Under the pieces are notes generated by a model. The model was not told the origin of the DNA. It worked only from the letters and a program-made list of their open reading frames with translations, and made no database searches. Of a DNA stretch of 64,000 nucleotides, positions 10,546 to 46,222 are shown in pieces; within the stretch, counting starts at the first letter, position 1, and each line of letters begins with the position of its first letter. The position numbers and the translations under genes are program-made. The stretch is from Labrys monachus (GTDB lineage: Bacteria > Pseudomonadota > Alphaproteobacteria > Rhizobiales > Labraceae): the NCBI RefSeq assembly GCF_030814655.1, contig NZ_JAUSVK010000001.1, positions 1,061,043-1,125,042 on the forward strand. Reading direction: 5' to 3'.

Positions 10546-10548
10546 CGC

Positions 10549-18717: not shown

Positions 18718-18877
18718 GTCGTTCCTCTTTCCGTCGTCGTTGCCATGAACGTCCACGATCAGGACCTTCTACGACTCTGACAGTCTGGCTTAAAGAAATA
18801 ACCATCATAAGGCAGGATGCGCGGTGCTTCGCCGCCACGCGCCGATTGCCGGCGCATCAGGAAGAACGGATACCGCC

Positions 18878-20212: not shown

Positions 20213-20221
20213 AGGCAGCCT

Positions 20222-21799
20222 TCACTCCATCACGGCGCTGTGGTCCATCGCCACCGGCTTGGCGGATTTGCGTAGCAGGAACACCAGCGGCATGACGGCC
20301 AGGGAGAGGATCATCATCAGCTTGAAGTCGTCGATGAAGCTGATGATCGTGGCCTGCTGGGTCACCATGCCGTCGAGCGAAGCCAGGCCTGCGCGGCTGA
20401 ACGGGTTGAGCCAATGGGCCGAGGCGATGCTCTGCATCGCGCGATTGTAGGGCGAGACGTAGCTGGCGATGTCGGCGTGGTTGACCTGCACATTCTCGGT
20501 GAGCAGGGCCGAAACCACGGAGATGCCGACGCTGGAGCCGATGTTGCGCGACAGATTGTAGAGGCCGGTGCCGTCGCCGCGCATCTCGGCGCCGAGGGTC
20601 TCGAAGGTCACCGTCGTCAGCGGCACGAACAGGAAGCCGAGACCGGCGCCCTGGACGAAGCCGGTGACGACGATCCGCTCCTGCGACACATCCGGCGTCC
20701 AGCCCGTCATGTCGTACATCGCCCATGCCGTGAGGCCGAGGCCGATGAGCAGCAGGATGCGGGTGTCGACCCGGCCGATCAGGCGCCCCATCATGAACAT
20801 GCACACCATGGTGCCGACGCCGCGCGGGCCCATGACCAGGCCCGCCGTCACCACCGGATAGCCCATCAGGGTCTGCAGATAGGGCGTCATCAGCGACATC
20901 GAGGCGAGATAGGTGATGCCGACGATGAAGATGAAGATCATGCCCACCGAGAAGTTGCGGTCGAGGAACAGCCGTGGATTCACGAAGGGCTTGCGGGCGG
21001 TGAAGGTGTGCACCAGGAAGACGTAGAACGCGCCTGCGCTGACCAGCGCCTCGAGGATGATCTCACCCGAGGAGAACCAGTCGAGCTGCTCGCCGCGGTC
21101 GAGGAACATCTGGAGCGCGGCAATGCCGAGGCTGAGCGTGCCGAAGCCGAGCCAGTCGAGCTTGGCGCCGGCATTGCTTTTGGTCTCCTTGACGAAGGCC
21201 ATCACGCCGAGCATGGCGGCGAGGCCGATCGGCAGGTTGATGTAGAATACCCAGCGCCAGGAGATGTTCTCGGTCAGCCAGCCGCCGATCACCGGACCGA
21301 GCACCGGGCCGACCATGACCGACACGCCGAACAGCGCCATGGCCGAGCCGCGCTCCTCGACGGTGTAGATGTCGAGCAGGATGGCCTGGGACAGCGGCAC
21401 CAGCGAAGCGCCGAAGAAGCCCTGCAGCAGACGGAAGCCGACGATCTCGTTGAGGGACTGCGCCATGCCGCACAGCATGGAGGCCACCACGAAGCCGACG
21501 ATGGCGACGAGCAGCACGCGCTTGCGTCCGAAACGGGCGGCGAGAAAGCCGGACGGCGGCGTCATGATGGCGGCGGCGACGATGTAGGAGGTCAGCACCC
21601 AGTTGATCTGGTCGGCACTGGCCGAGACGCTGCCCTGGATATAGGGCAGCGCGACATTGGCGATCGTGGTGTCGAGCGCCTGCATGATCACCGCGAGGAT
21701 GACGCAGGCCGTGATCGCGCCGCGGTTGGCGACCGTGGGCGCCGGTACCGGCATGGTCAGGGATGCGGCGGAGGCCGTCGCCGTGGCGGACGCACTCAT
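20222..21799 (-). CDS. MFS drug efflux transporter, DHA2 family (EmrB/QacA type)
   Basis: The 525-residue protein has 14 predicted membrane helices. Signatures include the DHA2 start QALDTTIANVALPYIQGS, motif A-like GFLAARFGRKRVLL and the motif C region GPVLGPVIGGWL. It exports hydrophobic drugs or toxic metabolites by proton antiport and, with the adaptor encoded 9 nt upstream, should form an EmrAB-type tripartite pump. It is the last gene of the marR-emrA-emrB unit. A TolC-like partner is not encoded nearby. Confidence 0.93.
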   Translation of the reverse strand: MSASATATASAASLTMPVPAPTVANRGAITACVILAVIMQALDTTIANVALPYIQGSVSASADQINWVLTSYIVAAAIMTPPSGFLAARFGRKRVLLVAIVGFVVASMLCGMAQSLNEIVGFRLLQGFFGASLVPLSQAILLDIYTVEERGSAMALFGVSVMVGPVLGPVIGGWLTENISWRWVFYINLPIGLAAMLGVMAFVKETKSNAGAKLDWLGFGTLSLGIAALQMFLDRGEQLDWFSSGEIILEALVSAGAFYVFLVHTFTARKPFVNPRLFLDRNFSVGMIFIFIVGITYLASMSLMTPYLQTLMGYPVVTAGLVMGPRGVGTMVCMFMMGRLIGRVDTRILLLIGLGLTAWAMYDMTGWTPDVSQERIVVTGFVQGAGLGFLFVPLTTVTFETLGAEMRGDGTGLYNLSRNIGSSVGISVVSALLTENVQVNHADIASYVSPYNRAMQSIASAHWLNPFSRAGLASLDGMVTQQATIISFIDDFKLMMILSLAVMPLVFLLRKSAKPVAMDHSAVME

Positions 21800-21808
21800 G
21801 GCGACGCC

Positions 21809-23017
21809 TCACTCGTGCGCGGCTTGGCCGCGGCCGAGCCATTTGTCCACGAAGGCCGGCAGGCCGCGAGCATGGCCGGTGTCGACGCTGACCTCGACGC
21901 TCATGCCGACCCGCAGAGGCGGGTTGTCCGGCGCCGGGTCCAGGGCGACCCGCATCGGAATGCGCTGCACGACCTTGACCCAGTTGCCGGAGGTGTTCTG
22001 GGCCGGCAGCAGCGAGAAGCTCGAGCTTGAAGCCGGGCTGATGGTGTCGACCTTGCCCCTCCACTCCACGCCCGGATAGGTATCGACCGATACGGTCACC
22101 GGCTGGCCGGGCTTGACATAGGTCAGCTCGGTTTCCTTGGGGCTGGCCTCGACCCACATATGCTCGGTGGAGACGAGGTTGAAAGCCTGCTGCGAGGCCT
22201 GGAGATAGGCGCCGAGCTGCAGGTTGTCGACATTGGTGACGATGCCGTCGAACGGAGCCTTCACGACAGTGTCGTTGAGATCGCGCTGAGCGCTGTCCAC
22301 CGCCGACTTCGCCTGCAGGTAGAAGGGGTTCTGTTCAACCGGCAGCGAGGCGTCGCCGCCGAGCTGGGCCAGCATGGCCTGGGCCTGCGACTGGGCCACC
22401 AGGACCTTCTGGCGGGCCGCGTCGAGATCGTGCTTGGCGGTGTCGTAATTGGCCTTCGAGGCGGCGGAACTGCTCTGCAGATCCTGCTGGCGCTTGAAAT
22501 TGGTCTCGTAATAGGGAATGTCCGTCCTGGCCTGTTCGATCTGGCTCACGGCAAGGGTGTAGCTCGCCTGCAGCGTCAGCACCTGGTTGCGCACCGTGCC
22601 GAGCTGGGCCTGCGCGCCTGCGAGGGCGATCTTGTAGGTGTCCTGGCGTAGCCGGTAGAGGATGTCGCCCTTCCTGACACGCTGGTTGTTGGTGACGTCG
22701 ATCTCGATCACGGTGCCCGCGACATCGGTGGAGACGCCGACCGTCGCCGCCTGGACATAGGCATTGTCGGTTTCCACGACCTGGCCGCCGGTCACGTAAT
22801 AATAGCCGCCGACGACGAGCGCGATGGGGAGCAGGGCGAACAGGACCGGTCGGACCAGCGAGCGCTTCCTTTTCGGCGCCGCGGGCGGCATGGCCGCCGG
22901 GGTGACGACGGGAGCCGGCTTCGGCGCTGAAGGCGCCTCGGACTGGGACGGCTTGGCGTCCTGCTTGTCGTCCGTCTTGCGGCTGTCGATGCGAGGAACG
23001 GTATTGCCGTCAGCCAT
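21809..23017 (-). CDS. EmrA/HlyD-family efflux adaptor
   Basis: This is a 402-residue membrane-fusion protein. A cytoplasmic Lys/Pro/Ala-rich tail of about 60 residues precedes a single membrane anchor (VLFALLPIALVVGGYYYVTG). The lipoyl halves follow (VSTDVAGTVIEIDVTNNQRV and VVKAPFDGIVTNVDNLQLGA) around a long coiled-coil (about 115-215), then a barrel domain. AAGGAGG 6 nt before ATG 23017 sets the start. That ATG overlaps the end of the marR gene by 8 nt, implying translational coupling. It pairs with the DHA2 transporter immediately downstream. Confidence 0.93.
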   Translation of the reverse strand: MADGNTVPRIDSRKTDDKQDAKPSQSEAPSAPKPAPVVTPAAMPPAAPKRKRSLVRPVLFALLPIALVVGGYYYVTGGQVVETDNAYVQAATVGVSTDVAGTVIEIDVTNNQRVRKGDILYRLRQDTYKIALAGAQAQLGTVRNQVLTLQASYTLAVSQIEQARTDIPYYETNFKRQQDLQSSSAASKANYDTAKHDLDAARQKVLVAQSQAQAMLAQLGGDASLPVEQNPFYLQAKSAVDSAQRDLNDTVVKAPFDGIVTNVDNLQLGAYLQASQQAFNLVSTEHMWVEASPKETELTYVKPGQPVTVSVDTYPGVEWRGKVDTISPASSSSFSLLPAQNTSGNWVKVVQRIPMRVALDPAPDNPPLRVGMSVEVSVDTGHARGLPAFVDKWLGRGQAAHE

Positions 23018-23949: not shown

Positions 23950-24191
23950 AACGGTATTTTCCGCATATTGCGGCGCATTTTGTTGCCGATGGTCGGCGCG
24001 AGGCGGGCTTTCGGCCGGAAGGGTCGCCGGCGAGGCTGCGGATCGAAATCGCCGGGGTGAAATGTTGCTCGGAACCCTTCGCTGCCCTTCTACGGTCCTA
24101 AAGCTGCCTTCTTGTATGTTTCCAATGCACGTCCTGCGTTTTCCGGTGCGTGAAAACACGCGGGGCATGTGCAACGACAAAAGGGTGGAAA

Positions 24192-26774
24192 ATGGCCGCA
24201 AGGATGATGGCGAAACTGTTTCTCGTTTTCGGGGCTCTCTTCCTTCTTGCCGGGGCGGCGCGGGCGCAGGACGAGAAGCGCATCGCGCTCGTCATCGGCA
24301 ATGGCGCCTATCAGGCGGGGCCTCTGGCCACCGCGGCCAACGATGCCGGACTGATCGCGCAGACGCTGCAGGCGTCCGGCTTCGATGTCGTCGGCGCCCG
24401 CGATCTCGACCAGGATGCCCTGCGCCACGCCTTCCGTGATTTTCTGGACAAGGCGACTGCGTCGGGTCCCCACACCGTCGCCTTCGTCTATCTCGCCGGC
24501 TATGGCCTGCAACTCCAGGGCGAGAATTATTTCGTGCCTGTCGATGCGAGGATCGCGAATGCCGCCGCGGTGTCGGTGGACGCCGTCCGCATCTCCGATT
24601 TCACCAAGGCACTGGCCGCTCTTCCGCTCAAGATGAGCATCGTCGTCGTCGATGGCGCCCGCGCCAATGATTTCGCCCGCGGCGACCAGCCGCTCGCCGG
24701 CGGCCTCGCCCTCGTCGACGCCGATCCGAACATGCTGGTCGCCTTCAATGCCGCTCCGGGCACCGTCGCCCCGGCCGAGCAGGGGCCTTATGGCGCCTAT
24801 GCGCAATCGCTCGCCGAGATGATGCGGGTCGGCGGGCTGCCGCTGCAGGACGTCTTCGACAGGACGCGGCTGCGCGTCAGCGAGAAGACCAACGGCGCCG
24901 TGCTGCCGTGGAGCACGTCGAGGATCACCGAGCCTTTCGTCTTCTTCGAGCGGGGTTCCGGCGCGCCGGCGCCCCAGGCCTCCTATGATCGCGACGCGGC
25001 GATGCGGGCCAAGCCCATCGCCCAATTCGACGCGCGGGACGCCTATATGGCGGCGCTCGACCGCGACACGCTGCCCGGCTACGAGGAGTTCCTGAAGGCC
25101 TATCCGAAGGATGCGATGGCCAAGCGCGTGCGCGCCATCGTCGCCGCGCGACGCGAGGCGATCACGTGGCGGCAGACCTGGATGCGCGACACGCCGAACG
25201 CCTACTGGTCCTATCTCAGGCGCTATCCGCGCGGGCCGCACGCTTGGGATGCGCGGCGCCGCCTCCGCCATTTCGAGGCCGCCCTCGAGCCGCCCGCGAC
25301 CTTCGATGCCATCGAATACGATGTGCCGCCGCCGCCGGAATTCGAGGTCGTCTATGTCGACCGTCCGGTGTTCATCTTCAGCGATCCGGACTTCGATCTG
25401 CCGCCGCCGCCCCCGCCGCCGGTGATCTTCCTGCCGCCGCCGCCGCGCGACTTCGTCGAATTGCCGCCGCCGCCCCCGCCCCGCGGTGACTACATGCTGC
25501 CGATGCCGCGCTACGTCGCGGTTCCCGAATGGGTGCGGCCCCCGCGCTATATCGAGCCGCCGCCCCAGAACGTCATCTTCGAGAACATCCACAACTCGAC
25601 GGTCGTCAACGAGATGATCGACAATCCGCGACGGGAAGACGAACGCCCCGGCGCCGCCATGACGCCGGGCGAGAAGGTGACCGGCGCCGCGATTGCGGCG
25701 GGTGCGGCTGCCGCCGTGCTCGGCGTTACCCTGCCGCCCTATCTGCGGAACCGCCCCGGTGCCGGACCGAGGAATCCGGGCGGGGTCGACCGCACCGGCG
25801 GCCAGCCCATCCTGCCGGGGCAGCCGCGGCCTGGATTGCAGCCCCTTCCGGGCGTCGTCCAGCCCGGCAAGCTCCCGGCCGGCCAGAACCCGCCGGGCGT
25901 GAACGGGCAGAATCCGTTGCCGGGACAAGCCGGCCCGCAGGATCACAAGGGTCCGGCCGGGCAGAACAACCTGCCGGGCATGAACGGGCAGAAGCCGCTG
26001 CCGGGACAGGGCAATCTGCCGAAGGCCGGTGGGCAGCCGCCGCTCCCGGGCCAGGCCGGCCCCCAGGACCACAAGGGTGAGAAGGGGCCGGGCGGGCAGA
26101 ACAACCTGCCTGGCATGAACGGCGGTCAGCCGCTCCCCGGCCAGGCGGGCCAGCAGGGCCGGAAGGGGCACAAGCCCCCGCCGGGCCAGAACAACCTGCC
26201 GGGCATGAACGGGCAGGCGCCCGACACCCTTCAGAATCCGGCTGCGCAGGCGCAGCCCGGCGCGGAGCCGGGTAATCCCAAGCCGGGCAAGCAGGGCCGC
26301 GGAAAGAAGGGTCATGGCGCGTTGCCGGGCAATGGTCCCGCCGGCGGCGCTCAGCCCGGCAATCCGGCCCTCCAGCCGGAGCCGGGCGTCGGCGGGCCGA
26401 AGGCGAATGCACCCGGGAATGGCCAGGAGGGGGGCCTGCCGACGGCGAAGCAGCACCGCCGGAACCAGCCCGGTGGCGACCAGGGGCCGGCGGCTGGCAA
26501 GCCGTTCCCGTCGCAGCCTGCGCCGCAGCTCGAAAGGGCGCAGCCTCAATCCAACAGGCCGGCCCATGCGCCCAAACCCCAGATGCAGCCGATGCAGGAA
26601 CGCCCGGCGCCTCAGCCGCGCCTTCAGCCGCAGATCCGCCAGGCGCCCCAGATGCAGCCGCAGCGTCAGCCTCGGCCGGAACCGCGGGTGCAGCAGCCGA
26701 TGCGGCAACCGCCGCAGGCCCATCCCGCCGCGCCCGGGCGAAACTGCGGCCGGCCGGGGATGCCGCCCTGCTGA
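24192..26774 (+). CDS. Secreted caspase-fold (peptidase C14-like) protein with substituted catalytic dyad and long Pro/Gly/Gln-rich tail
   Basis: The 860-residue protein starts with a signal peptide (MMAKLFLVFGALFLLAGAAR, cleavage near ARA/QDE). Residues 27-250 form a caspase/orthocaspase p20-like domain: RIALVIGNGAY, NDAGLIAQTLQASGFDV, YLAGYG and VVVDGARAND. Active members have His in the AGHG motif and Cys in the DACR motif. Here those positions are Tyr104 and Gly155, so proteolysis is not expected. A helical region (about 265-375) is followed by poly-Pro blocks (about 380-460), a short hydrophobic segment near 510-525 and a ~340-residue tail of repeats such as NNLPGMNGQ and PLPGQAGPQ, rich in P, G, Q and N. 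Probably a periplasmic or surface scaffold (inference). Confidence 0.85.
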   Translation: MAARMMAKLFLVFGALFLLAGAARAQDEKRIALVIGNGAYQAGPLATAANDAGLIAQTLQASGFDVVGARDLDQDALRHAFRDFLDKATASGPHTVAFVYLAGYGLQLQGENYFVPVDARIANAAAVSVDAVRISDFTKALAALPLKMSIVVVDGARANDFARGDQPLAGGLALVDADPNMLVAFNAAPGTVAPAEQGPYGAYAQSLAEMMRVGGLPLQDVFDRTRLRVSEKTNGAVLPWSTSRITEPFVFFERGSGAPAPQASYDRDAAMRAKPIAQFDARDAYMAALDRDTLPGYEEFLKAYPKDAMAKRVRAIVAARREAITWRQTWMRDTPNAYWSYLRRYPRGPHAWDARRRLRHFEAALEPPATFDAIEYDVPPPPEFEVVYVDRPVFIFSDPDFDLPPPPPPPVIFLPPPPRDFVELPPPPPPRGDYMLPMPRYVAVPEWVRPPRYIEPPPQNVIFENIHNSTVVNEMIDNPRREDERPGAAMTPGEKVTGAAIAAGAAAAVLGVTLPPYLRNRPGAGPRNPGGVDRTGGQPILPGQPRPGLQPLPGVVQPGKLPAGQNPPGVNGQNPLPGQAGPQDHKGPAGQNNLPGMNGQKPLPGQGNLPKAGGQPPLPGQAGPQDHKGEKGPGGQNNLPGMNGGQPLPGQAGQQGRKGHKPPPGQNNLPGMNGQAPDTLQNPAAQAQPGAEPGNPKPGKQGRGKKGHGALPGNGPAGGAQPGNPALQPEPGVGGPKANAPGNGQEGGLPTAKQHRRNQPGGDQGPAAGKPFPSQPAPQLERAQPQSNRPAHAPKPQMQPMQERPAPQPRLQPQIRQAPQMQPQRQPRPEPRVQQPMRQPPQAHPAAPGRNCGRPGMPPC

Positions 26775-26859: not shown

Positions 26860-27651
26860 CTATACCGTCTTCAGCATGCCGCCGTCGACGTAATAGGTCG
26901 AGCCGACGCTGTAGCTCGCCTTGTCCGAGCACAGGAAGACGAAGAAGTTCGCCAGTTCCTGCGCCGTCGCGAAGCGCTTGATCGGTGCATGCTCGCGTGC
27001 GACCTCGTCGAGATAGCCCTGCCAGTCGCCGCCCTTGTCGGCCGTGAGCTGCTTGGCGGTCTTGACCCAGTCGGGCGTCAGGATCAGGCCGGGATTGACG
27101 GTGTTGACGCGGATATTGTCCTTGATCACCTCTTGGGCGAGGGTCTTGGAGAACATCATCAGCGCAGCCTTGGTGACGTTGTAGATCGGCTCGTACCACA
27201 AGGGCTGCGCCGCGCAGATCGAGGCGTTGTGCAGGATGACGCCGGCGCCGCGTTCGCGCATCGAGGGCACGAAGCCGCGGGCCAGCCGGACGGCAGCCAT
27301 CACATGCAGGTCCCAATAGCTCTGCCACTTCTCGTCCGGCGCTTCCATGATGGTCTCGTTGGAGCCCGTCCCGGCATTGTTGATCAGGATGTCGGCGCCG
27401 CCGAAGGTCGCGGCGGTCTCATCGACCAGCTTGCGCGTGCCCTCCGGCGTGCCGACGTCGCAGGCGACACCGAGCGTGCGCACGCCGAAATGAGCGGCGA
27501 TGCGCCCGGCCTCGGCGGTGACGCGTTCGCTCTGGCGTGCCGCCAGCACGACGTGGCTTCCTTCCGCCGCCAGTCCTTCGGCGATCGCGAGGCCGATGCC
27601 GACGCTGCCGCCGGTGATGACGGCGACCTTGCCCTTCAATCCGAGATCCAT
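26860..27651 (-). CDS. Short-chain dehydrogenase/reductase (SDR)
   Basis: This is a classical SDR of 263 residues: cofactor motif TGGSVGIG (13-20), NNAG (91-94), catalytic S144, Y157 and K161 (YNVTK), and C-terminal YYVDGGML. It is likely an NAD(P)-dependent alcohol or sugar oxidoreductase. GGAGG lies 5 nt before the ATG. It is the last gene of the leftward FGGY kinase operon, 63 nt after the first SDR, and is followed by a strong terminator. The substrate cannot be read from sequence; the context suggests a polyol or keto-sugar intermediate. Confidence 0.9.
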   Translation of the reverse strand: MDLGLKGKVAVITGGSVGIGLAIAEGLAAEGSHVVLAARQSERVTAEAGRIAAHFGVRTLGVACDVGTPEGTRKLVDETAATFGGADILINNAGTGSNETIMEAPDEKWQSYWDLHVMAAVRLARGFVPSMRERGAGVILHNASICAAQPLWYEPIYNVTKAALMMFSKTLAQEVIKDNIRVNTVNPGLILTPDWVKTAKQLTADKGGDWQGYLDEVAREHAPIKRFATAQELANFFVFLCSDKASYSVGSTYYVDGGMLKTV

Positions 27652-27714: not shown

Positions 27715-28473
27715 TCAGAAGCCGCCGACGACATAGCCGCCGTCGACGGGCAAAGTGGTGGCGGTGACGAACTGGGCGGCGGGCGAGGCGAAGAAGATCG
27801 CGGTTCCCACGAGGTCGTCGACGCTGCCCCAGCGCTTGAGCGCCGATTTCTTCGCGATCTTGTCCGCCGGGACGGGATCTTCCCACAGCGCCCGCGTCAT
27901 GTCCGTCTTGTGGTAGCCGGGGGCGATCGCGTTGACGCGAATGCCCTCCGGCCCGAATTTATGCGCCAGCGCCCGCGTCAGCCCCACGATGCCGGTCTTG
28001 CTGGCGCAATAGGCGGGCACGCTGTCATCGGCGAGATAGCTCAGCATCGAGGCGAAATTGATGATGGAGCCCTTCGACTTGAGCAGGAGCGGATGGGCCG
28101 CCATCGATAGGCGCATGGCGCTGTTCATGTTGACGTCGATGACTTCGAGATAGGTCTCCTCCGTCCATTCCGCGCCCGGGCGGGCGATGCCCTGGGCGTT
28201 GACCAGCACGTCCAGGCTCGGCAAGATCGAGAAGAAGGCGTCGACGGCCTGCTTGTCGCGGACGTCGAGCTTTTCGAAGCGGATGCCAGCGAGGCCGGGG
28301 TCGGCCCTGGCCGCCGACAGCTTGGCCGACGACGAGCCGGTGGCGATGACGCCGGCGCCGAGCCGGGCAAAGCCCTCGGCGAGGGCGAGGCCGATGCCGC
28401 TCGATCCGCCGGAAATGACGACGGTCTTGCCGGCGAAGAGATCGGGGCGGAAGGCCGAGAGAACGTCCTGCAT
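27715..28473 (-). CDS. Short-chain dehydrogenase/reductase (SDR), GFAG-type relative of sugar/polyol dehydrogenases
   Basis: The 252-residue SDR has SGGSSGIG (21-28), NAQG in place of the usual NNAG, catalytic S142, Y155 and K159 (YCASK), and C-terminal LPVDGGYVVGGF. It is probably a sugar or polyol dehydrogenase. The start at 28473 is set by AGAGGAA 6 nt upstream; the same frame continues far upstream through the overlapping GldA-like gene without family sequence. It is the third gene of the FGGY kinase operon, 89 nt after the GldA-like gene. Confidence 0.9.
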   Translation of the reverse strand: MQDVLSAFRPDLFAGKTVVISGGSSGIGLALAEGFARLGAGVIATGSSSAKLSAARADPGLAGIRFEKLDVRDKQAVDAFFSILPSLDVLVNAQGIARPGAEWTEETYLEVIDVNMNSAMRLSMAAHPLLLKSKGSIINFASMLSYLADDSVPAYCASKTGIVGLTRALAHKFGPEGIRVNAIAPGYHKTDMTRALWEDPVPADKIAKKSALKRWGSVDDLVGTAIFFASPAAQFVTATTLPVDGGYVVGGF

Positions 28474-28562: not shown

Positions 28563-29633
28563 TCAGATCAGGGCGCGGAGCGCCGCGACGACCTTGTCGA
28601 GCGTCATCGGAGCCGCCTCGTTGTGCATGATCTCGCCCGGCCGGCAGGCGCGTTCGGCCACGATGCGCAGCTTCTCCTCCGTCGCGTCGGCGATGCCGAT
28701 ATCGGCGAGCCGCACCGGCAGCTTCACCGCCACGCAGAAATCGCGGATGCGCCGGAACTCCTCCTGCGGGGCGCTCTGCAGGATCAGTTCGGCGAGCACG
28801 CCGATGGCGACCTTCTCGCCGTGGAGATGGTGATGCACGTCGTCGAGCTCGCACAGGCCGTGATGGATGGCATGGGCGCCGGCGACGCCGCCGGATTCGA
28901 AGCCGACGCCGCTGAGCAGGATATTGGCTTCCACCACCCGCTCGAAGGCGGGGCCGGGCGCGCCGGCTTCGCATTCGGCGAGCGCCGCCACCCCATGGTC
29001 GAGCACGGTGTCGCGGCACAGGCGGGCGACTTCGTAGGCGATCGCGGCGCCGCGCGTTTTCATGCAATTGTCGGCGCCCGACAGGCGGCAGGCCTCCGCC
29101 TCGTAGAAGGTGGCGAGGGCGTCGCCGATGCCGGCGGACAGGAAACGGGCCGGGGCCCTGGCGATGATCGCGGTGTCGACCAGGACGAGATCGGGATTGC
29201 GCGGGAAGAAGAAGTCATACGCCACCTTGCCGTCATCGTGATAGATCACGGCGAGCGCGCTGCAGGGGGCATCCGAGGCGGCGATCGTCGGTACGATCAC
29301 GCTCGGCCGCCCCAGCCGGAAGGCCGCGGCCTTGGCGGTGTCCAGCGCCTTGCCGCCACCGATGCCGATCACCACTTCGGCCCCCGCCTCGCGCCCGATC
29401 GCCTCGACCCGTGCGATCTCGCTTTCCGAGCACTCGCCGCCATGGCGGACCAGCGTCGCCGCGACGGCTCCGGCGCAGGCCGCTTCGACGGCCGGGGCGA
29501 GCGCGTCGTAGATACCCCGGTCGACGACGCACAGGGCGGTCCTGCCGAACGTCGCCGCTTCCTTGCCGAGAAGCGGGAGAATGCCGGGTCCCTGGAGATA
29601 ACGGCCCGGAAAGCGGGCGCCGATGAGTGTCAT
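28563..29633 (-). CDS. GldA-like iron/zinc-containing glycerol or polyol dehydrogenase
   Basis: The 356-residue protein fits the glycerol dehydrogenase branch of the metal-dependent alcohol dehydrogenases. It opens with GARFPGRYLQGPGIL, has NAD-binding GGGKALDTAK (92-101) and TIAASDAPCSALAVIY, and puts metal ligands at D171, H254 and H271 (HGEK). It should oxidise a vicinal diol to a ketone with NAD+. Its ATG overlaps the stop of the FGGY kinase gene (ATGA), so the two are translationally coupled. Dihydroxyacetone or another ketose made here could be the kinase substrate, though the exact polyol is unknown. Confidence 0.9.
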   Translation of the reverse strand: MTLIGARFPGRYLQGPGILPLLGKEAATFGRTALCVVDRGIYDALAPAVEAACAGAVAATLVRHGGECSESEIARVEAIGREAGAEVVIGIGGGKALDTAKAAAFRLGRPSVIVPTIAASDAPCSALAVIYHDDGKVAYDFFFPRNPDLVLVDTAIIARAPARFLSAGIGDALATFYEAEACRLSGADNCMKTRGAAIAYEVARLCRDTVLDHGVAALAECEAGAPGPAFERVVEANILLSGVGFESGGVAGAHAIHHGLCELDDVHHHLHGEKVAIGVLAELILQSAPQEEFRRIRDFCVAVKLPVRLADIGIADATEEKLRIVAERACRPGEIMHNEAAPMTLDKVVAALRALI

Positions 29634-31159
29634 GATACTTTTTCCGTGTGCGAAGCCGCAGCGAGGCCGTCGAGGTCGTCATAGAGGGCCTGCGAATGCC
29701 TGTAGATGCGGTCGAACACCGGCTGCATCCTCGCATAGGTGTCGGCCCAGGCTGGATCGGGCAGGACCTCGTCGGCATAGGCCACGAAGCGCGTGACCGC
29801 ATCCTCGACCCGCGAGAAGCGCCCGACGGCCGTCGCCGCCATCGCGGCGCAGCCCACCAGGCCGCATTCGGTTTCCTGGGGCACGAGGATCGGCACATTG
29901 TAGGCGCTGGCCTTGATCTTCAGCCAGAGCGCCGTCTTCGCCCCCCCGCCCGAGGCGACGACGCGCTCGAGCTTCTGGCCGGTGGCGGCTTCGATGATGC
30001 GGATATGGCGGGTGACGGCGAAGGCCACGCCTTCCAGGATGGCGCGGTGGAGATGGGCGAGGCCGTGGCGGGCGCCGATGCCGAAGAACTGGGCCCGCGC
30101 ATTGCGATGCGCGCCGAGCCTTTCTCCGACCAGGAAGGGCAGGAAGAACAGGGCGTCGGCGCCGGCCGGCGCTTCGGCCGCCTTCGCCACGATCTCGCCA
30201 TAGCCCAGCGCCTTCTCGTGAAAGGCGCGGCGGGCCCAGCGCATGGCGTCGCCGCCGGTTTCCAGCAGCGTGAACGGGCCCCAATGGCCTTCGACGGTGC
30301 GCACATTGCACATCTCCGGGTCGAGCAGCGGGCGTTCGGCGATCAGGGTGATGATCGAGGACGTGCCCATGACGTCGGAGGCGAGGCCCGGCCGCATCAC
30401 GCCCGACCCGAGCACGGCGACGGGATAGTCGGCGCCGCCCACCAGCACGGGGGTTCCCTCGGCGAGGCCGGTCTCGGCCGCCGCCGCGGCGGTGACCGCG
30501 CCGAGGATGTCCAGCGGCGAGCGGATCGGCGGCAGCTTGGCGGCATCGAGGCCGAGCCGGTCGATCATCGCCGCCGACCATTGCCCCGTCTGCGGGTTCA
30601 TCAGGAAGCTGCAGGAGGCGTCGCCCTCGTCCATGGCGATCTCGCCGGTCAGCCGCAGGTTGATGTAGTCCTTCGGCATCAGGACGGTGGCGGCGGCCTC
30701 ATAGGCCTTGGGGTCGTTGTCGCGCAGCCAGGCGAGCTTGAAGCCAGGCCAGGCCGGCGTCGGCGGGTTGCCGCTCTCGGCGAGATAGGAGGCGGGCGCA
30801 TTGTCGCGCTCGAAGGCCGCCACCAGCGCCGCGGTGCGCTTGTCGTTCCACAGCGGCGCGGTCTCGCGCGTCGGACGGCCATGGCCGTCGACCAGCACGG
30901 TGCCGTGCATCTGTCCGCAGGCGGCGACGGCGAGGATGCGCCTGACCGCGTCGGGCTCCCGGTCGAGCACGGCCCTGACCGCCTGGACCGTGCCGGCCCA
31001 CCAGTCGGCCGGGCGCTGCTCGGCCCAGCCGAAGGCCGGGACGATCTGGTCATACTCGCTGGCGGAGATCTGCCTTATGGCCCCGCCGGCGGCATCGACC
31101 AGAGCCGCGCGGGCGCTGCCGGTGCCGACGTCGATGGCGAGGATCAGGTCCTGGGTCAT
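29630..31159 (-). CDS. FGGY-family carbohydrate kinase (xylulokinase-like)
   Basis: This 509-residue sugar kinase has two ASKHA ATPase domains: AIDVGTGSARAALVDAAG at the N-terminus, CGQMHGTVLVDGHG, the hinge segment GGADYPVAVLGSG and the adenosine motif VASGGGAKTALWLKIKASAY. It phosphorylates a ketose or polyol with ATP. Similarity is to the xylulokinase group, but specificity within FGGY kinases is not predictable by eye. The start at 31159 has GGGAGG 7 nt upstream. It leads the leftward operon kinase-GldA-SDR-SDR, and its promoter region is shared with the KDPG-aldolase operon and carries two HexR-type palindromes. Confidence 0.9.
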   Translation of the reverse strand: MTQDLILAIDVGTGSARAALVDAAGGAIRQISASEYDQIVPAFGWAEQRPADWWAGTVQAVRAVLDREPDAVRRILAVAACGQMHGTVLVDGHGRPTRETAPLWNDKRTAALVAAFERDNAPASYLAESGNPPTPAWPGFKLAWLRDNDPKAYEAAATVLMPKDYINLRLTGEIAMDEGDASCSFLMNPQTGQWSAAMIDRLGLDAAKLPPIRSPLDILGAVTAAAAAETGLAEGTPVLVGGADYPVAVLGSGVMRPGLASDVMGTSSIITLIAERPLLDPEMCNVRTVEGHWGPFTLLETGGDAMRWARRAFHEKALGYGEIVAKAAEAPAGADALFFLPFLVGERLGAHRNARAQFFGIGARHGLAHLHRAILEGVAFAVTRHIRIIEAATGQKLERVVASGGGAKTALWLKIKASAYNVPILVPQETECGLVGCAAMAATAVGRFSRVEDAVTRFVAYADEVLPDPAWADTYARMQPVFDRIYRHSQALYDDLDGLAAASHTEKVS

Positions 31160-31301
31160 GGCCGGCCTCCCCGGTTGCGGCGGCCTGCGGCCTGCGAGGA
31201 ACGTGTGACGGCCGGCTTGCGCGCGGATTTCGGAACACGATGGCGGTGATGGGGCTGGGACATGTGGATTTGCTGTTTGTCGCCGGGAGGCGGTCCGTCG
31301 A

Positions 31302-31314
31302 GTAGCGATGCTAC
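31302..31314. promoter_or_regulatory. Palindromic operator 1 (HexR-like), FGGY kinase side
   Basis: GTAGC-GAT-GCTAC is a perfect inverted repeat 143 nt upstream of the kinase ATG. With flanks it reads AGTA-N7-TACA, one base from the HexR consensus layout TGTA-N7-TACA. The HexR-like regulator at 34183-35085 is the natural candidate to bind it. Confidence 0.65.
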
Positions 31315-31403
31315 ATGATTTCGGTAAGGTCAACCGAAACTTCGGCTCATTCTACGCTGCAACGCAGCAATGTCTCATCCATCTTGCATGTAAAAGCCGC
31401 TGT

Positions 31404-31420
31404 CTGTAGCATTGCTACAG
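31404..31420. promoter_or_regulatory. Palindromic operator 2 (HexR-like), KDPG-aldolase side
   Basis: CTGTAGCATTGCTACAG is a perfect 17 nt palindrome around one T. It contains TGTA-N7-TACA, the spacing of known HexR sites. It lies about 150 nt upstream of the KDPG-aldolase-like start, so each arm of the divergent locus has one site. The remaining part of 31160-31567 shows no gene. Confidence 0.7.
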
Positions 31421-31567
31421 ATTGGGAGCGGCATATGCGAGAGAGGGCAATCCCTAGCAGCTCGAAACGGGCGCGCCGGCTGGATCCGCGTGGCGAACGC
31501 GCATTATAAGCACGGCGTTCCCGCGAGGAAGCCCTGGTGCCTTCCCGCCCATGATTTCTGGAGAGCC

Positions 31568-32227
31568 ATGATGGCAGCAAGCCCCCTCGAGCAGATCGAA
31601 GCAATCGGTGTCGTCCCGGTCATCGCCATCGAAGAGGCGGGCCATGCCGTGGCCCTCGCCGACGCCCTGGCCGAGGGCGGCCTGCCGATCGCCGAGATCA
31701 CCTTCCGGACCCGGGCCGCCGCCGACGTCCTGGCGACGCTCAAGGAGAAGCGTCCGGATTTCCTGGCGGGCGCCGGCACCGTGCTCGACCTCGATTCGGT
31801 GCGGGCCTCGAAGGAGAACGGCGCGAAGTTCGCGCTGTCGCCGGGCTTCGATCCCGAGATCGCCGCCGCCGCCGTCGCGATCGGCCTGCCCTTCGCGCCC
31901 GGCATCATGACGCCGACCGACCTCACCCTCGCGGTCCGGGCCGGGTTCCGGCTGTGCAAGTTCTTTCCGGCCGGCATCGCGGGCGGGCCGAAGGCGCTGG
32001 AAGCGATCGTCGCGCCGTTCAACCATCTCGGGGTCCGCTTCATCCCGACCGGCGGCGTCAGCCTGGAGACGATGGGCGACTGGCTGAAGCACCGCTTCGT
32101 CGCCGCGGTCGGCGGCACCTGGATCGCCCGTCCGGAAGACCTGCGCGAAGGCCGCTTCGCCGACATCACGGCAAAGGCGAGGGCGGCGGTGGAGCGTGCC
32201 AGAGCCATAAGGGAAAGTGCATCATGA
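31568..32227 (+). CDS. KDPG/KHG aldolase-family protein (Eda-like)
   Basis: The 219-residue TIM barrel has the family's catalytic pattern: E43 and R47 in IAEITFRTR, the phosphate-site segment GAGTVLDLD, and Schiff-base K131 in LCKFFPAGIAGGPKALE. The family splits 2-keto-3-deoxy-6-phosphogluconate or related keto-deoxy acids into pyruvate and an aldehyde. The usual CKFFPAE reads CKFFPAG here, a possible specificity difference. GGAGA lies 5 nt before the ATG. Its TGA overlaps the next ATG (ATGA). It is the first gene of the rightward arm of the HexR-like locus. Confidence 0.9.
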   Translation: MMAASPLEQIEAIGVVPVIAIEEAGHAVALADALAEGGLPIAEITFRTRAAADVLATLKEKRPDFLAGAGTVLDLDSVRASKENGAKFALSPGFDPEIAAAAVAIGLPFAPGIMTPTDLTLAVRAGFRLCKFFPAGIAGGPKALEAIVAPFNHLGVRFIPTGGVSLETMGDWLKHRFVAAVGGTWIARPEDLREGRFADITAKARAAVERARAIRESAS

Positions 32228-33177
32228 GTCTCTATCAGCCGGCGACCCGGCCGACCCTCTACTTCATCGGCGTCACCACCACAAAGAGCTCGATCATGCG
32301 GGTGTTTCCCGCCTGGGCGGCGCATCTCGGGCTGAAGGATGCGGTGATCAAGGGGATCGATTTCCCCCTGCATGCCGAGCCGCAGGCCTATCGCGAGGCC
32401 GTCGCCTTCATCAAGGCCGACCCGCTGTCGCTGGGCGCGCTCGTCACCACCCATAAGATCGATCTCTACAAGGCCTGCCGCGACATGTTCGACGAGATCG
32501 ATCCCTTCGCGCGCGGGATGGAGGAGACGAGCTGCCTCTCCAAGCGGGACGGGCGCCTCGTCTGCCACGCCAAGGACCCGATCTCCTCCGGGCTGGCTCT
32601 CGACGGCTTCATCGAGCCCGGCCATTTCGCCCGCACCGGCGCCGAACTCTTCTCGATCGGCGCCGGCGGCTCGACCATCGCCTTGACGTGGCACATCGTC
32701 CGGCCCGAACGCAGCGACGACGTGCCTTCCCGCATCATCGTCTCCAACCGCAGCCCGCACCGCCTCGACGAGATCCGGCGCATCCATGCCGAGATCGGCA
32801 TGCGCGTGTCGGTGGATTATGTCCTCGCCCCCAGGCCCGAGGACAATGACGCCGTGACGGCGACGCTGAAGCCCGGTTCGGTGGTCATCAACGCGACCGG
32901 CCTCGGCAAGGATGCGCCGGGCTCGCCGCTCACCGATGCCGTGCGCTTCCCCGAACGCGCCATCGTCTGGGATCTCAACTATCGCGGCGACCTCGTCTTC
33001 CTCGACCAGGCCCGGCGCCAGCAGGCGGAACGGCACCTGCAGATCGAGGATGGCTGGACCTATTTCCTGCATGGCTGGACGCAGGTGATCGCAGAAGTCT
33101 TCCACATCGCGATCCCGACCGCCGGCCCGGATTTCGACCGCCTCGGCGAGATCGCCATCAGCGCCGCCAAAGGCTAG
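32224..33177 (+). CDS. Shikimate dehydrogenase-like oxidoreductase
   Basis: The 317-residue protein has the two-domain shikimate dehydrogenase fold. An N-terminal substrate domain holds TTKSSIMRVFPAW, K78 in LVTTHKIDLYKAC and D127 in SSGLALDGF at the places of the catalytic Lys/Asp pair. The nucleotide domain has FSIGAGGSTIAL (147-151), INATGLGKD and a C-terminal QIxxG-like region replaced by LHGWTQVIAEVFHI. It is longer and divergent from AroE and sits in a sugar-catabolic operon, so an unconventional substrate is likely. It is coupled by ATGA overlap to the aldolase gene. Inference: oxidation or reduction of a sugar acid or lactone. Confidence 0.8.
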   Translation: MSLYQPATRPTLYFIGVTTTKSSIMRVFPAWAAHLGLKDAVIKGIDFPLHAEPQAYREAVAFIKADPLSLGALVTTHKIDLYKACRDMFDEIDPFARGMEETSCLSKRDGRLVCHAKDPISSGLALDGFIEPGHFARTGAELFSIGAGGSTIALTWHIVRPERSDDVPSRIIVSNRSPHRLDEIRRIHAEIGMRVSVDYVLAPRPEDNDAVTATLKPGSVVINATGLGKDAPGSPLTDAVRFPERAIVWDLNYRGDLVFLDQARRQQAERHLQIEDGWTYFLHGWTQVIAEVFHIAIPTAGPDFDRLGEIAISAAKG

Positions 33178-33186
33178 GCGCGCCCG

Positions 33187-34086
33187 ATGGCACCTGACCG
33201 GGGCGCGTGGCCGTCCTTCGAACAGATCCCTTATGACGGGCCGCTGGCGGCGCGTCTCGCCACCCGTCCGGCAGCGGGCGGGCTTTCGCTGTACTGGCTG
33301 GGGCAGGCGGGCTTCGTGCTGGATACCGGGCAGGCCCGTCTGCTGATCGATCCCTATCTCTCGGATGCGCTGGCGGTGAAATATCGCGGCCGCGGCTTCT
33401 CGCATGAACGCATGATGCCGCCTCCGATCGGCGTCGACGATCTGCCGCCGATCGATGCGGTGCTGTGCACGCACCACCATACCGACCACATGGACGGCGA
33501 AACGCTGCAGCGGATCGCCGCTCGCTGTGCCGGAACGCGCTTCGTCGTGCCGCTCGCCTCCCTCGCCCTCGCACGCGAGCGGATCGGCGCGGCGCCGGGA
33601 CGCCTCGTCGGCGTCGATGCGGGGGACGGCCTCGACCTCGCTGCGGGCCTCCGGCTGAGCGTGATGCGCGCCGCCCACGAAACGCTGGAACGCGATGCCG
33701 CCGGCCGGCATGTCTTCCTCGGCTACGGGCTGGAGGCGGATGGGCTCAGGGTCTTCCATTCCGGCGATACCGTGCCGTTCGAGGGGCAGGCGGCGGAAAT
33801 CGCCGCGTTCCGGCCCGATCTCGCTTTGTTTCCGGTCAATGGCCGTTCGGACGCCTTGCGCTCGGCCGGCATTGCCGGCAATTTCACGCTGGACGAAACG
33901 GCCGATCTCGCTCGCGAATGCCGCGTGCCGGTCGTCATGGCCCATCATTACGGCATGTTCGCCTTCAACAGCGCGGCGCCGGAAGCGATCGATGCCAGGG
34001 CCCGTGGCATGACGGGCGGGACGAGGCTGGTCCGTGCGAGGACGGGCGTCGAATACCGCCTCGGCAAGGACCCGGTGGGCGGATGA
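33187..34086 (+). CDS. UlaG-like metallo-beta-lactamase-fold hydrolase
   Basis: This 299-residue MBL-fold enzyme resembles the UlaG (L-ascorbate-6-phosphate lactonase) group. It has LYWLGQAGFVLDTGQARLLI, LIDPYLSD, metal-binding THHHTDHMDG, FHSGDTVPF and a late His in VVMAHHYGMF. UlaG relatives hydrolyse sugar-acid lactones or phosphodiesters using Mn or Zn. It starts 9 nt after the SDH-like gene, in the same operon. A lactonase step feeding the aldolase is a reasonable guess from context, not shown by sequence. Confidence 0.85.
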   Translation: MAPDRGAWPSFEQIPYDGPLAARLATRPAAGGLSLYWLGQAGFVLDTGQARLLIDPYLSDALAVKYRGRGFSHERMMPPPIGVDDLPPIDAVLCTHHHTDHMDGETLQRIAARCAGTRFVVPLASLALARERIGAAPGRLVGVDAGDGLDLAAGLRLSVMRAAHETLERDAAGRHVFLGYGLEADGLRVFHSGDTVPFEGQAAEIAAFRPDLALFPVNGRSDALRSAGIAGNFTLDETADLARECRVPVVMAHHYGMFAFNSAAPEAIDARARGMTGGTRLVRARTGVEYRLGKDPVGG

Positions 34087-34182
34087 CGGCGGGCCTCGAA
34101 GGGCGGTAGCCTTGTCGGCTCATCCATCGGCCTGGGGCGCGAGCAGGCATTCTTGCGGGATGAAGGAGAGGACCGCCAGCCC

Positions 34183-35085
34183 ATGACCACACCGATCCCG
34201 CCCGCGGCGGCGCAGCCGGCCGCCCGCGCGACGACGCAGAACGTGCTCGAGGTCGTGCGCCTCATGCGGTCGGAGCTGCGCAAGTCCGACCGCAAGGTGG
34301 CGGACCTGATCCTGGCCGATCCCCACCGCATCCTGAATGCGACGGTGGCGGAGACCGCCCACGCCGCCGAGGTCAGCGAGCCGACGGTGATCCGCTTCTG
34401 CACGGCGATCGGCTGCAACGGCTTCCAGGACTTCAAGCTCCGCCTCGCGCAGAGCCTGGCGCTCGGCACGCCCGCCACCCATTCGGTGCTGCTCGACACC
34501 GATTCGCCGGAGGCGGTGGTGGAGAAGATCTTCGACTACACGATCACCAGCCTCGACTGGGCGCGCCACCATCTCGACAAGGCGGCCCTGACGCGGGCGA
34601 TCGGCATCCTCGAAAAGGCCAATTACATCGAATTCTTCGGCTTCGGCGCCTCGGGCATCGTCGCCCGCGACGCCCAGCAGAAATTCCCGCTCTTCGGCGT
34701 GCCCTGCGGGGCGCAGCTCGATTCCCACCAGCAGCTGATGGTCGCGGCGATGATGAAGCCCGGCGACGTCGCGGTGGTCATTTCCAACACCGGCATGACG
34801 CGCTCCATCATCGAGGTGGCGCGCACGGCGCACGAGAACGGCGTCGCGGTGATCGGCATCACCGGGGCCGACACGCCCCTGACGCGCCATTGCGACGTGG
34901 CGCTGATCGTCGAGACGCTCGACAACACCAACATCTACACGCCGACGATCTCGCGCATCGCCGCCCTCGTCGTCATCGACGTGCTCTCCACCGCCGTGGC
35001 GTTGCGGCGCGACGAGGACCACCTGCGCCGCTTCCGCCTGATGAAGCGCCGCCTCACCGAACTGCGCACCAACGAGCGGCTCTAG
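34183..35085 (+). CDS. RpiR/SIS-family transcriptional regulator, HexR-like
   Basis: The 300-residue protein has an N-terminal HTH_6 domain (ELRKSDRKVADLILADPHRI, AEVSEPTVIRFCTAIGCNGF) followed by a SIS sugar-phosphate-binding domain (YIEFFGFGASGIVARDAQQK, VISNTGMTRSIIEVARTA). It matches HexR along its length, including DFKLRLAQSLALGTP and SRIAALVVIDVLSTAVALRR. HexR responds to KDPG and controls Entner-Doudoroff genes through TGTA-N7-TACA sites, and two such palindromes lie in this locus. Its TAG stop lies within the CTAG target of an IS5 insertion but is unchanged. An in-frame TTG at 34155 is an alternative start. Confidence 0.9.
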   Translation: MTTPIPPAAAQPAARATTQNVLEVVRLMRSELRKSDRKVADLILADPHRILNATVAETAHAAEVSEPTVIRFCTAIGCNGFQDFKLRLAQSLALGTPATHSVLLDTDSPEAVVEKIFDYTITSLDWARHHLDKAALTRAIGILEKANYIEFFGFGASGIVARDAQQKFPLFGVPCGAQLDSHQQLMVAAMMKPGDVAVVISNTGMTRSIIEVARTAHENGVAVIGITGADTPLTRHCDVALIVETLDNTNIYTPTISRIAALVVIDVLSTAVALRRDEDHLRRFRLMKRRLTELRTNERL

Positions 35086-36354
35086 CAGGCTGCGGAAATT
35101 GACATCTGTATAGGTGATTTTCGTTTTTGCTCATGCAGTTGGAGTGGGATTTCTGACGGATGTGGATCGGGTATCGATGCGTTTTTCCGGTATTCCGGTT
35201 CAAGTCGTTGCGAAGAGTTTGGGAAGTCGGATGAGGTTGTAGGCTGCGGCTCTGAGAGTGAACATCCATCCGACCCGTTCTTGGCCTCGGTGTTTTGTTT
35301 GCCGGAAGCCGCCGGCTTCCTTGATCCAGCCGAACGGCTCTTCGATGCGTTTGCGGATCGTCTGGCTGAGGGCATATCCGGGGTGGCGTGTCGTGCGCCG
35401 ATCGATGGCTGACCGGCGGTTGGTGGCGTTCTGCGCGACATGCGGCGTCACGCCGAGAGCGCGCAACCTGGCCACATGCGCAGCGACGTCATAGGCCTTG
35501 TCGGCGCCCAGGGTGACACGGCCGGCCGGCGCGGCGTCCTCGATCATCGCCTCGGCCGCCGCCCGCTCGGCCCAGCCGGTGGCCTTCGTCAGTTCGGCAT
35601 CGACGATGAGGCCGTTGCGGTTCTCCATGAGGACATGGCCGAGATAGGCCAGCTTGGCGGGCTGGCCGTCCGCCTTGCGATAAAGCCGGGCATCCGGGTC
35701 GGTGGTGCTCTCATGGGTCTGGTTGGAGCGCTTCTCGCCCCGGAAATCGCGCTCGCCATTGCGGCCCGGCCCGGGCGGTGACCCGCTGCCATCCTTGGGC
35801 TGAAAGCTCTTCATCGACGCCCAGGCGGCGATCAGCGTGCCGTCCACCGAAAAATGCTCGCTCGACAGCAAGGGCTTGACCTGCGGATCGGCCAGGATCG
35901 CAAGCAGAAATTCCCGCGCGATGTCGCCCTCCAAAAGCCGGTCGCGGTTCTTGGTGAACACCGTCACATCCCAGATCGGCGCATCCATCGACAGGCCGAT
36001 GAACCAGCGGAACAGCATGTTGTAGCGCACCTGCTCCATGAGCTGGCGCTCGGAACGGATGCCGAAGAAGGCCTGCACCAACAAGGCCCGCAGCAGTTTC
36101 TCCGGTGCGATCGAGGCGCGGCCATACGGCGAATAGAGCTTCGAGAACGGCTCGGACAACCGTTCGAGAGCCGCGTTCACCACAAGGCGGATGGCACGTA
36201 GCGGATGATCGCGAGGAACAAGCGATTCAGGGCTCTGATAACTAAAGAGCGCACCCGTCTGTTCATCCGATCCGCGCATCAGCCCCTCCAAGCAATCCAC
36301 AACAATCAGTGAATCAGATCGCTCGCGCTTCGGGTAGTGAATTTCCGCAGCCTG
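35086..36354 (-). mobile_element. IS5-family insertion sequence, copy 1
   Basis: The 1269 bp element has ends that are inverted repeats of CAGGCTGCGGAAATT, with CTAG on both sides (35082-35085 and 36355-36358). A 4 bp YTAR-type target duplication such as CTAG is characteristic of the IS5 subgroup. The left CTAG supplies the TAG stop of the HexR-like gene. It carries one intact transposase on the minus strand. Confidence 0.9.
35200..36279 (-). CDS. IS5-family DDE transposase
   Basis: This 359-residue transposase has an N-terminal DUF772 region (HPLRAIRLVVNAALERLSEP, LLRALLVQAFFGIRSERQLM, FIGLSMDAPIWDVTVF) and a DDE domain with Asp in HFSVDGTLIAAWAS, Asp in TLGADKAYDV and Glu in IRKRIEEPFGWIK. 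It appears intact. GGAGGGG 3 nt before ATG 36279 sets the start. It is clearly related to, but not identical with, the transposase at 54767-55918: a 20-plus residue insert after the first Asp in that copy is absent here. Confidence 0.92.
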   Translation of the reverse strand: MRGSDEQTGALFSYQSPESLVPRDHPLRAIRLVVNAALERLSEPFSKLYSPYGRASIAPEKLLRALLVQAFFGIRSERQLMEQVRYNMLFRWFIGLSMDAPIWDVTVFTKNRDRLLEGDIAREFLLAILADPQVKPLLSSEHFSVDGTLIAAWASMKSFQPKDGSGSPPGPGRNGERDFRGEKRSNQTHESTTDPDARLYRKADGQPAKLAYLGHVLMENRNGLIVDAELTKATGWAERAAAEAMIEDAAPAGRVTLGADKAYDVAAHVARLRALGVTPHVAQNATNRRSAIDRRTTRHPGYALSQTIRKRIEEPFGWIKEAGGFRQTKHRGQERVGWMFTLRAAAYNLIRLPKLFATT

Positions 36355-36573
36355 CTAGAGACGGCTGTGGAGCGATGCCCGGAAGATGTGGACATCCGCC
36401 CCCTGCGCCCGGCCCGGGGGTGACGCCGGCGGGCGGCAGGCGCTATGGCTTCGGGCTGCCCGCTACAGGAAAACATCGATAGAATCGCTTTTCAGCCCTA
36501 TCTGTCATCCTGACACCCATCGTTCTCGAAAGGCTGGGCTTTTCGAACCAAATCCTGGAAATCGGCACGGCGT

Positions 36574-44202: not shown

Positions 44203-44351
44203 GGCTAGGCCCTTTCACGCGCGGTCCGATGCCGCGGATCGTCATGGAAGCAGCGCCGCAGAATCGGCACCGCTTCGTTTCTTGCAGCAGTCGCGAGGCC
44301 CGTTCGTCAAGGCGGCGCAGGGGGGCGGAGCGCCGCCGCCCGAAGAGAGGG

Positions 44352-45353
<1,002 letters not shown>

Positions 45354-45387
45354 CACGCCACTCCCCAATTGATGATTTTATTTTTGA

Positions 45388-46218: not shown

Positions 46219-46222
46219 GACG

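Follow-up and report, generated by a model that had tools for sequence, protein, structure and literature searches.

What pathway is served by a divergent locus of Labrys monachus that joins an FGGY sugar kinase and several dehydrogenases with an Eda-type aldolase, a shikimate-dehydrogenase-like oxidoreductase (SDHL), an MBL-fold hydrolase (MBL) and an RpiR-family regulator? The locus lies in a 64,000-nucleotide stretch, hereafter the window, of contig NZ_JAUSVK010000001.1 (positions 1,061,043 to 1,125,042), and the window genome (G000) is a single contig of 6,920,400 bases; whole-genome positions are marked C1. The analysis suggests that a single regulon has been divided between two remote sites, each of which retains the control sequences, and that the window locus is one of these halves; the general direction of the regulon runs from a polyol to a phosphorylated ketose, an aldose phosphate and an oxidative route. 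We give this reading, regulon and direction taken together, a probability of about 0.55.

A conserved cluster around SDHL

The conservation scan used SDHL as a query against one genome per species, and the best 80 of the 179 stretches with a relative were kept (SDHL 69-88% identical). A neighbouring gene was counted at 40% identity or more within 10 kb on each side, less at contig ends, and absence counts are upper bounds because 19 of these 80 loci span less than 20 kb. The commonest neighbour is a homologue of cupin glucose-6-phosphate isomerase (cPGI; 76/80), followed by the FGGY kinase and the regulator (65 each), MBL (63) and an ABC permease (57). A polyol-type short-chain dehydrogenase (SDR) named SDRx is present in 54 loci, a further one, SDR2, in 50, and a binding protein (SBP) and a D-2-hydroxyacid dehydrogenase (PGDHL) in 47 each. 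The GldA subtype of the window occurs in 26 loci and another subtype in 19, and the polyol dehydrogenases differ from cluster to cluster. A preliminary description of the window had proposed a gene-neighbourhood search on whether both arms are conserved together, and the 65 loci that hold SDHL with the FGGY kinase bear this out.

The gene arrangement reflects more than chance, because it recurs, judging by record titles, in Alpha- and Betaproteobacteria. The titles name Sinorhizobium, Rhizobium, Shinella, Mesorhizobium, Labrys, Acidisoma, Aureimonas, Paracoccus, Inquilinus, Paraburkholderia, Caballeronia, Propionivibrio and one "Mycobacterium sp. KBS0706". The distribution is patchy by genome: of 385 genomes sampled throughout the class, 6 carry the trait (window genome counted), as do all five genomes of the family, which belong to one genus. 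Six stretches from plasmid records show a concordant picture. Three of them (L093, L095 and L129) carry SBP-ABC-permease facing cPGI-Eda-SDHL-PGDHL-MBL-regulator; L092 has the order of L093 without Eda, L094 differs in its transporter genes, and the S. meliloti stretch, L091, keeps the core in different surroundings. The L091 cluster (6827-22266), of Sinorhizobium meliloti type, also holds a deoxyribose-phosphate aldolase, another FGGY kinase and an Ldh-family dehydrogenase. A remodelled cluster on a Shinella zoogloeoides plasmid (L127, 3755-21404) contains two genes annotated as shikimate dehydrogenase, two sugar phosphate isomerase/epimerases, phosphatases and Eda. This widespread bacterial gene set is described nowhere in the literature searched, which comprised open-licence PMC papers, and may be described elsewhere. 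The cluster is genuine and conserved, and it probably functions in the catabolism of a polyol or rare sugar.

A probable single regulon in two pieces

The preliminary description had seen an unfamiliar sugar or polyol pathway in the window. The joint conservation of the arms and the literature search agree with this; the gene set as it was read is incomplete, since the window locus is without cPGI, transporter and PGDHL. A genome search found cPGI at C1:3372593-3373204, 2.28 Mb from the window locus. It belongs to a second half (C1:3372590-3381119) in which it faces SBP, ABC, permease, a second GldA (GldA2), an MDR gene and a second FGGY kinase; the transporter is of the ribose-type ABC class and the MDR protein resembles galactitol-1-phosphate 5-dehydrogenase. 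The best match to PGDHL in the window genome is 35% identical. Immediately after the second half, C1:3381128-3382126 (L098) holds an open reading frame (ORF) that by eye resembles a sugar regulator of SorC/DeoR type.

Four other Labrys genomes (G001-G004) were compared with that of the window. In G004, regulator-MBL-SDHL-cPGI faces SBP-ABC up to the contig end, so the cluster is unsplit as far as visible. In G001-G003, cPGI and SDHL lie on different contigs; the SDHL loci resemble the window locus with PGDHL present, and the cPGI half of G003 matches that of the window genome.

The two halves are linked by a common palindrome. The 6.92 Mb genome contains four exact copies of TGTAG-N5-CTACA, two of which lie in the promoters of the two halves; the second-half promoter, between cPGI and SBP, carries the sites TGTAGTCACACTACA and TGTACTTAAGCTACA, and those of the window are listed in Table 1. 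The remaining two exact palindromes adjoin, by eye, an apparent transposase and amino-acid transport genes and were judged unrelated. The window holds four sites that depart from the pattern in one base or none, two of them in the divergent promoter, with 0.18 expected from shuffles. Across 79 of the 80 loci (the remaining locus has too little upstream DNA), such a site lies within 400 bases upstream of the first core gene in 29, as compared with 20 of 3333 other 400-base blocks, and with two mismatches allowed the figures are 47 of 79 and 239 of 3333.

The palindrome resembles a published one. According to PMC5489143, the RccR site of Pseudomonas is a 15-bp pseudopalindrome, TGTAGT/ACTACA, with two copies upstream of aceE; RccR is an RpiR-family regulator responsive to 2-keto-3-deoxy-6-phosphogluconate (KDPG), to which HexR also answers, and the HexR site is TTGT-N7-8-ACAA. 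The sites found here agree with that RccR consensus in the five outer bases of each half and differ in the sixth, which is C/G instead of T/A. HexR control, as previously assigned to this locus, gives way to a likely control of RccR type: the HexR motif, in its Pseudomonas form, occurs neither in the window nor in either divergent promoter. The regulator itself has the HTH_6 and SIS domains and comes near the HexR model without reaching it (PRK11302, 285.1 bits; cut-off 296; here and below, verdicts of hidden Markov models compare bit scores with curated NCBIfam or Pfam cut-offs). Its likeness to RccR rests on domains and site, and its gene, unlike those of RccR and HexR, lies in a sugar cluster. 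Judged from these sequences, the regulator would bind the TGTAG-N5-CTACA sites of both halves and thereby control both; the signal may be an intermediate that resembles KDPG.

A proposed route from polyol to aldose phosphate and beyond

For the substrate, a hexitol or rare ketohexose is proposed. The ribose-type transporter would import a polyol, the SDR, GldA and MDR enzymes would oxidise it to a ketose, and the FGGY kinase would phosphorylate the latter. The closest matches of the SDRx copy of R. leguminosarum are a putative polyol dehydrogenase and galactitol dehydrogenase. The model of a binding protein (L021 copy) is nearest to 4RY9, whose ligand is probably D-talitol (= D-altritol); the literature search yielded no paper on it. 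cPGI would then convert the ketose-6-phosphate to an aldose-6-phosphate. The S. meliloti copy, with which the Labrys copy shares 58% identity, passes Pfam GPI (PF06560, 264.3 bits; cut-off 20.7). Its similarity to the archaeal cupin phosphoglucose isomerase (E 9e-50) suggests a hexose-6-phosphate.

SDHL, a probable NADP(H) oxidoreductase, would oxidise the aldose-6-phosphate. In the simplest case it would do so at C1, giving a lactone for the MBL enzyme to open. The preliminary label shikimate-dehydrogenase-like stands for the predicted fold and fails for the sequence families: none of 54 aligned members matches any Pfam family at E 0.01, and NCBIfam aroE models give 20-37 bits (best 36.5, against a cut-off of 413) where cut-offs are 200-413. 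K78 and D118 are invariant in all 54 members and, by eye on the alignment, correspond to the catalytic Lys and Asp of shikimate dehydrogenase. Identity to the shikimate-dehydrogenase superfamily, including 5-ketofructose reductase (7COK/7COL), is 14-22%; as modelled, SDHL shares the overall fold with the latter enzyme, and their sequence similarity is marginal. The missing Pfam match and the near-constant cPGI neighbour set SDHL apart from that superfamily, and it resembles shikimate dehydrogenase but probably acts on sugars.

The proposed 2-hydroxyacid step and the aldolase

Subsequently, a D-2-hydroxyacid dehydrogenase would oxidise C2, and an Eda-type aldolase would cleave the resulting 2-keto acid phosphate into a three-carbon keto acid and glyceraldehyde-3-phosphate. 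For the C2 step most clusters have PGDHL (47/80) and others a GlcD-like flavoenzyme (17/80), the two being mutually exclusive within the 80 loci. An NAD-type enzyme has apparently been replaced by a flavoenzyme at one step, and at least two recruitments are likely because the GlcD-like genes of the loci split into two separate groups. G000 and G004, whose clusters lack PGDHL, each have a GlcD-like gene (65 and 67%) falling in a group with those of the cluster type, and the best matches in G001 and G002 reach 45-46%; in the window strain this unlinked gene would perhaps serve the C2 oxidation. All 34 of the 80 loci that contain Eda contain PGDHL as well; the window locus itself has Eda without it.

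Eda of the window passes TIGR01182 (212.8 bits; cut-off 156) and keeps E45, R49, T73 and K133. The 39 cluster Edas were compared with 32 comparators, consisting of best-scoring matches and three from the window genome. The residue following CKFFPA is G in 21, K in 8, M in 5, T and V in 2 each and Q in 1 of the cluster Edas, and E in 21, G in 7, S in 2 and K and A in 1 each of the comparators. CKFFPAG, which had been taken as a hint of altered specificity, is therefore non-diagnostic, since G is shared by 7 of 32 comparators, though E is found in none of the 39. More constant is the residue after GG near the C-terminus, Thr in 39 of 39 cluster Edas versus Ser in 28 of 32 comparators. The cluster Edas form a group of their own, a branch with support 95/72 dividing all 39 from the rest, and their sister group is three aldolases adjoining sugar-kinase-like ORFs, of which the one scanned is PfkB.

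Might the locus simply feed the ordinary Entner-Doudoroff pathway, the polyol ending as glucose-6-phosphate or 6-phosphogluconate, with Eda as an extra KDPG aldolase under a HexR-type regulator? The KDPG/KHG aldolase model passed by Eda, the regulator's nearness to HexR and the true 6-phosphogluconate dehydratase (Edd) of G001-G003 (959-960 bits) would suit such an entry, as would the response of both RccR and HexR to KDPG (PMC5489143). Yet the window genome and G004 contain no Edd over the cut-off of 708 (best 225.9 and 237 bits), so that the locus Eda is unlikely to serve the standard pathway here; that cut-off is passed by 2 of 14 control genomes. In addition, a search limited to the IlvD/Edd family (L094 query) found no dehydratase near any of the 80 loci, and the cluster Edas stand apart as a group. 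An ordinary Entner-Doudoroff entry is thus unlikely in our judgement. G000 and G004 have Eda-family genes despite the lack of an Edd over cut-off. The window genome contains five IlvD-family dehydratase matches below the Edd cut-off, one of which could take part. The dehydratase of L094 itself adjoins TRAP transporter genes and was judged separate from the cluster.

The proposed oxidative route can be stated in its strongest form as follows: SDHL would found a new NADP-dependent sugar-phosphate dehydrogenase family on the shikimate-dehydrogenase fold, at the heart of an undescribed Edd-free route, which would lead from ketohexose-6-phosphate by way of aldose-6-phosphate (cPGI), lactone (SDHL), aldonate (MBL) and 2-keto-aldonate (PGDHL or twice-recruited GlcD flavoenzyme) to hydroxypyruvate or pyruvate plus glyceraldehyde-3-phosphate (Eda), under an RccR-like regulator. 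In this full form it is speculative and rather improbable, and the exact order of steps after cPGI is itself doubtful. An aldolase step ending in pyruvate, as first proposed for this locus, may yet apply.

Weighing the proposed route

Several points weigh against the regulon and the oxidative route. With at most one mismatch, the operator pattern has 76 sites in the genome versus 310 for the backward-read control pattern, which is the commoner, and when one mismatch is allowed, a site is still absent from 50 of the 79 cluster promoters. In G002 and G003 the match to cPGI holds one in-frame TGA. Eda stands beside SDHL in just 34 of the 80 loci, its sisters lie beside sugar-kinase-like ORFs, as an ordinary KDPG aldolase might, and cleavage of a 3-hydroxy-2-keto acid by Eda would be unusual. 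The exchange of PGDHL for a flavoenzyme is blurred by a cluster of R. leguminosarum 22B (L129) that has PGDHL plus a GlcD-like gene beyond the regulator, and by G003, which has PGDHL plus a 54% GlcD-like gene; the GlcD counts are also not independent, because 14 of the 17 loci are Burkholderiaceae. The GlcD-like gene of G000 and G004 is unlinked and stands beside a GntR-like gene without an operator site, in G000 within 9 kb. In eight Mesorhizobium loci (L059, L067, L070, L072, L073, L078, L089 and L090), homologues of hexulose-6-phosphate synthase (HPS) and 6-phospho-3-hexuloisomerase, both scoring below the NCBIfam cut-offs, adjoin cPGI-SDHL and are left unexplained by oxidation at C1. Shikimate dehydrogenase itself oxidises a secondary alcohol of a ring, not C1. 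Finally, 13 of the 80 loci lack MBL, PGDHL and Eda altogether (seven of the eight HPS-type Mesorhizobium loci, four Inquilinus-like ones, of which L030 and L056 are cut by contig ends, L079 and L087), and SDHL may therefore work without the acid branch.

Alternatively, SDHL might oxidise or reduce a secondary hydroxyl, at C3 or C5, making or removing a keto group like 5-ketofructose reductase. Its role would then be to invert a carbon, for instance by taking allose-6-phosphate through a 3-keto intermediate to glucose-6-phosphate, or to reduce a keto sugar after uptake, with MBL, PGDHL and Eda as an optional side branch. MBL with PGDHL or GlcD stands beside SDHL in 60 of 80 loci, however, which makes the acid branch the rule; the similarity to 5-ketofructose reductase is marginal, and another shikimate-dehydrogenase homologue is reported to be inactive on 5-ketofructose (PMC7954740). 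Chemistry at C3 or C5 is accordingly a possibility that we take seriously while thinking it the lesser chance. That the polyol arm and the sugar-acid arm are two independent pathways, merely adjacent, would accommodate the 13 loci and the varying polyol dehydrogenases; it fits poorly with the majority of loci, from two classes, in which SDHL and cPGI accompany the FGGY kinase, and with the common operator in the promoters of both halves, and appears quite improbable.

Relation to known systems

Under the favoured reading of one regulon with an oxidative route, the steps of isomerase, oxidation, lactone opening and Eda would run parallel to the Entner-Doudoroff sequence Zwf-Pgl-Edd-Eda. The cluster differs by using other enzyme families for the first steps, by the added 2-hydroxyacid oxidation in most clusters and, in the window genome, by the absence of an Edd over cut-off. 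The Agrobacterium D-altritol pathway, for which PMC12193009 describes an altritol dehydrogenase, and the galactitol pathway share with the cluster an ABC transporter, an SDR polyol dehydrogenase and a ketohexose kinase. L-ascorbate (Ula) utilization offers the parallel of a lactonase role for MBL and of the HPS-family protein in eight Mesorhizobium loci, whereas the MBL of the window is far under the UlaG model. The Agrobacterium altritol and galactitol routes end at fructose-6-phosphate via an epimerase and are not known to involve SDHL, cPGI, MBL or Eda, which sets them apart from the cluster.

If true, the reading would provide a function for an oxidoreductase family publicly annotated as "shikimate dehydrogenase" in rhizobia, Paraburkholderia and others, and correct the label. 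It would also present a clear example of how a catabolic regulon can be broken up between two loci while its operators are retained, and one of an NAD-type enzyme apparently exchanged for a flavoenzyme at one step. Parts of the cluster logic can be stated with fair confidence; the substrate and the SDHL step cannot.

Genes of the window locus and its surroundings

All eight genes named in the preliminary description are intact single ORFs in the divergent arrangement it gave, with the FGGY arm opposite the Eda-SDHL-MBL-regulator arm, and the family checks pass for FGGY, Fe-ADH, Eda, Lactamase_B_2 and HTH_6 plus SIS (Table 1). The span it quoted, 29630-35085, leaves out both SDRs and most of GldA. 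Its ATGA couplings are confirmed as 4-bp overlaps, kinase/GldA at 29630-29633 and Eda/SDHL at 32224-32227.

Table 1. Coordinates of the features of the locus, in window positions
Feature	Position	Strand	Remark
SDR1	26860-27651	-	short-chain dehydrogenase
SDR2	27715-28473	-	short-chain dehydrogenase, conserved cluster member
GldA-type iron-containing polyol dehydrogenase	28563-29633	-	Fe-ADH; NCBIfam NF006941
FGGY sugar kinase	29630-31159	-	FGGY_N/C domains
Candidate operator AGTAGCGATGCTACA	31301-31315	no strand	1 mismatch to palindrome
Candidate operator TGTAGCATTGCTACA	31405-31419	no strand	exact palindrome, RccR-type 15-bp site
Eda-type class I aldolase (KDPG/KHG aldolase family)	31568-32227	+	TIGR01182
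SDHL, shikimate-dehydrogenase-like oxidoreductase	32224-33177	+	predicted fold
MBL-fold hydrolase, proposed sugar-acid lactonase	33187-34086	+	Lactamase_B_2
RpiR-family regulator, HexR/RccR-like	34183-35085	+	HTH_6 + SIS; earlier TTG start possible at 34153

GldA passes the NCBIfam glycerol dehydrogenase model (430.1 bits; cut-off 336), and the FGGY kinase, with its FGGY domains, stays below the xylulokinase model TIGR01312 (331.8 bits; cut-off 380). For MBL, the former description as UlaG-like needs correction, its score of 24.6 bits lying well under the UlaG cut-off of 306 (PRK11709). The nearest solved chain to SDR2 is 4avy, a probable SDR (E 1e-53). SDR1, once counted among the pathway genes, reaches 40% identity in 2 of the 80 loci, outside the core, and although it adjoins the kinase arm here, it is no member of the conserved cluster.

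At the end of the regulator gene lies an IS5-family element (35081-36359; transposase 35200-36300), both ends of which carry the inverted repeat TCTAGCAGGCTGCGGAAATT, the repeat including the regulator's TAG stop codon. Should the target duplication be CTAG, the regulator protein would have come through the insertion unchanged. Further along, 43432-49686 holds a second sugar-alcohol-type cluster, made up of a Sugar-bind-domain regulator, an SDR that shares 64% identity with SDRx, and ABC transporter genes that by eye belong to another type. In L011, L012 and L121 the SDHL locus is likewise followed by an SDRx-like gene and one for an ABC ATPase, and the 43.4-49.7 kb cluster was judged separate from the conserved SDHL cluster. 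On the other side of the locus, 24150-26774 is a long ORF with, by eye, a caspase-type-looking domain followed by a Pro/Gln/Gly-rich repeat tail.

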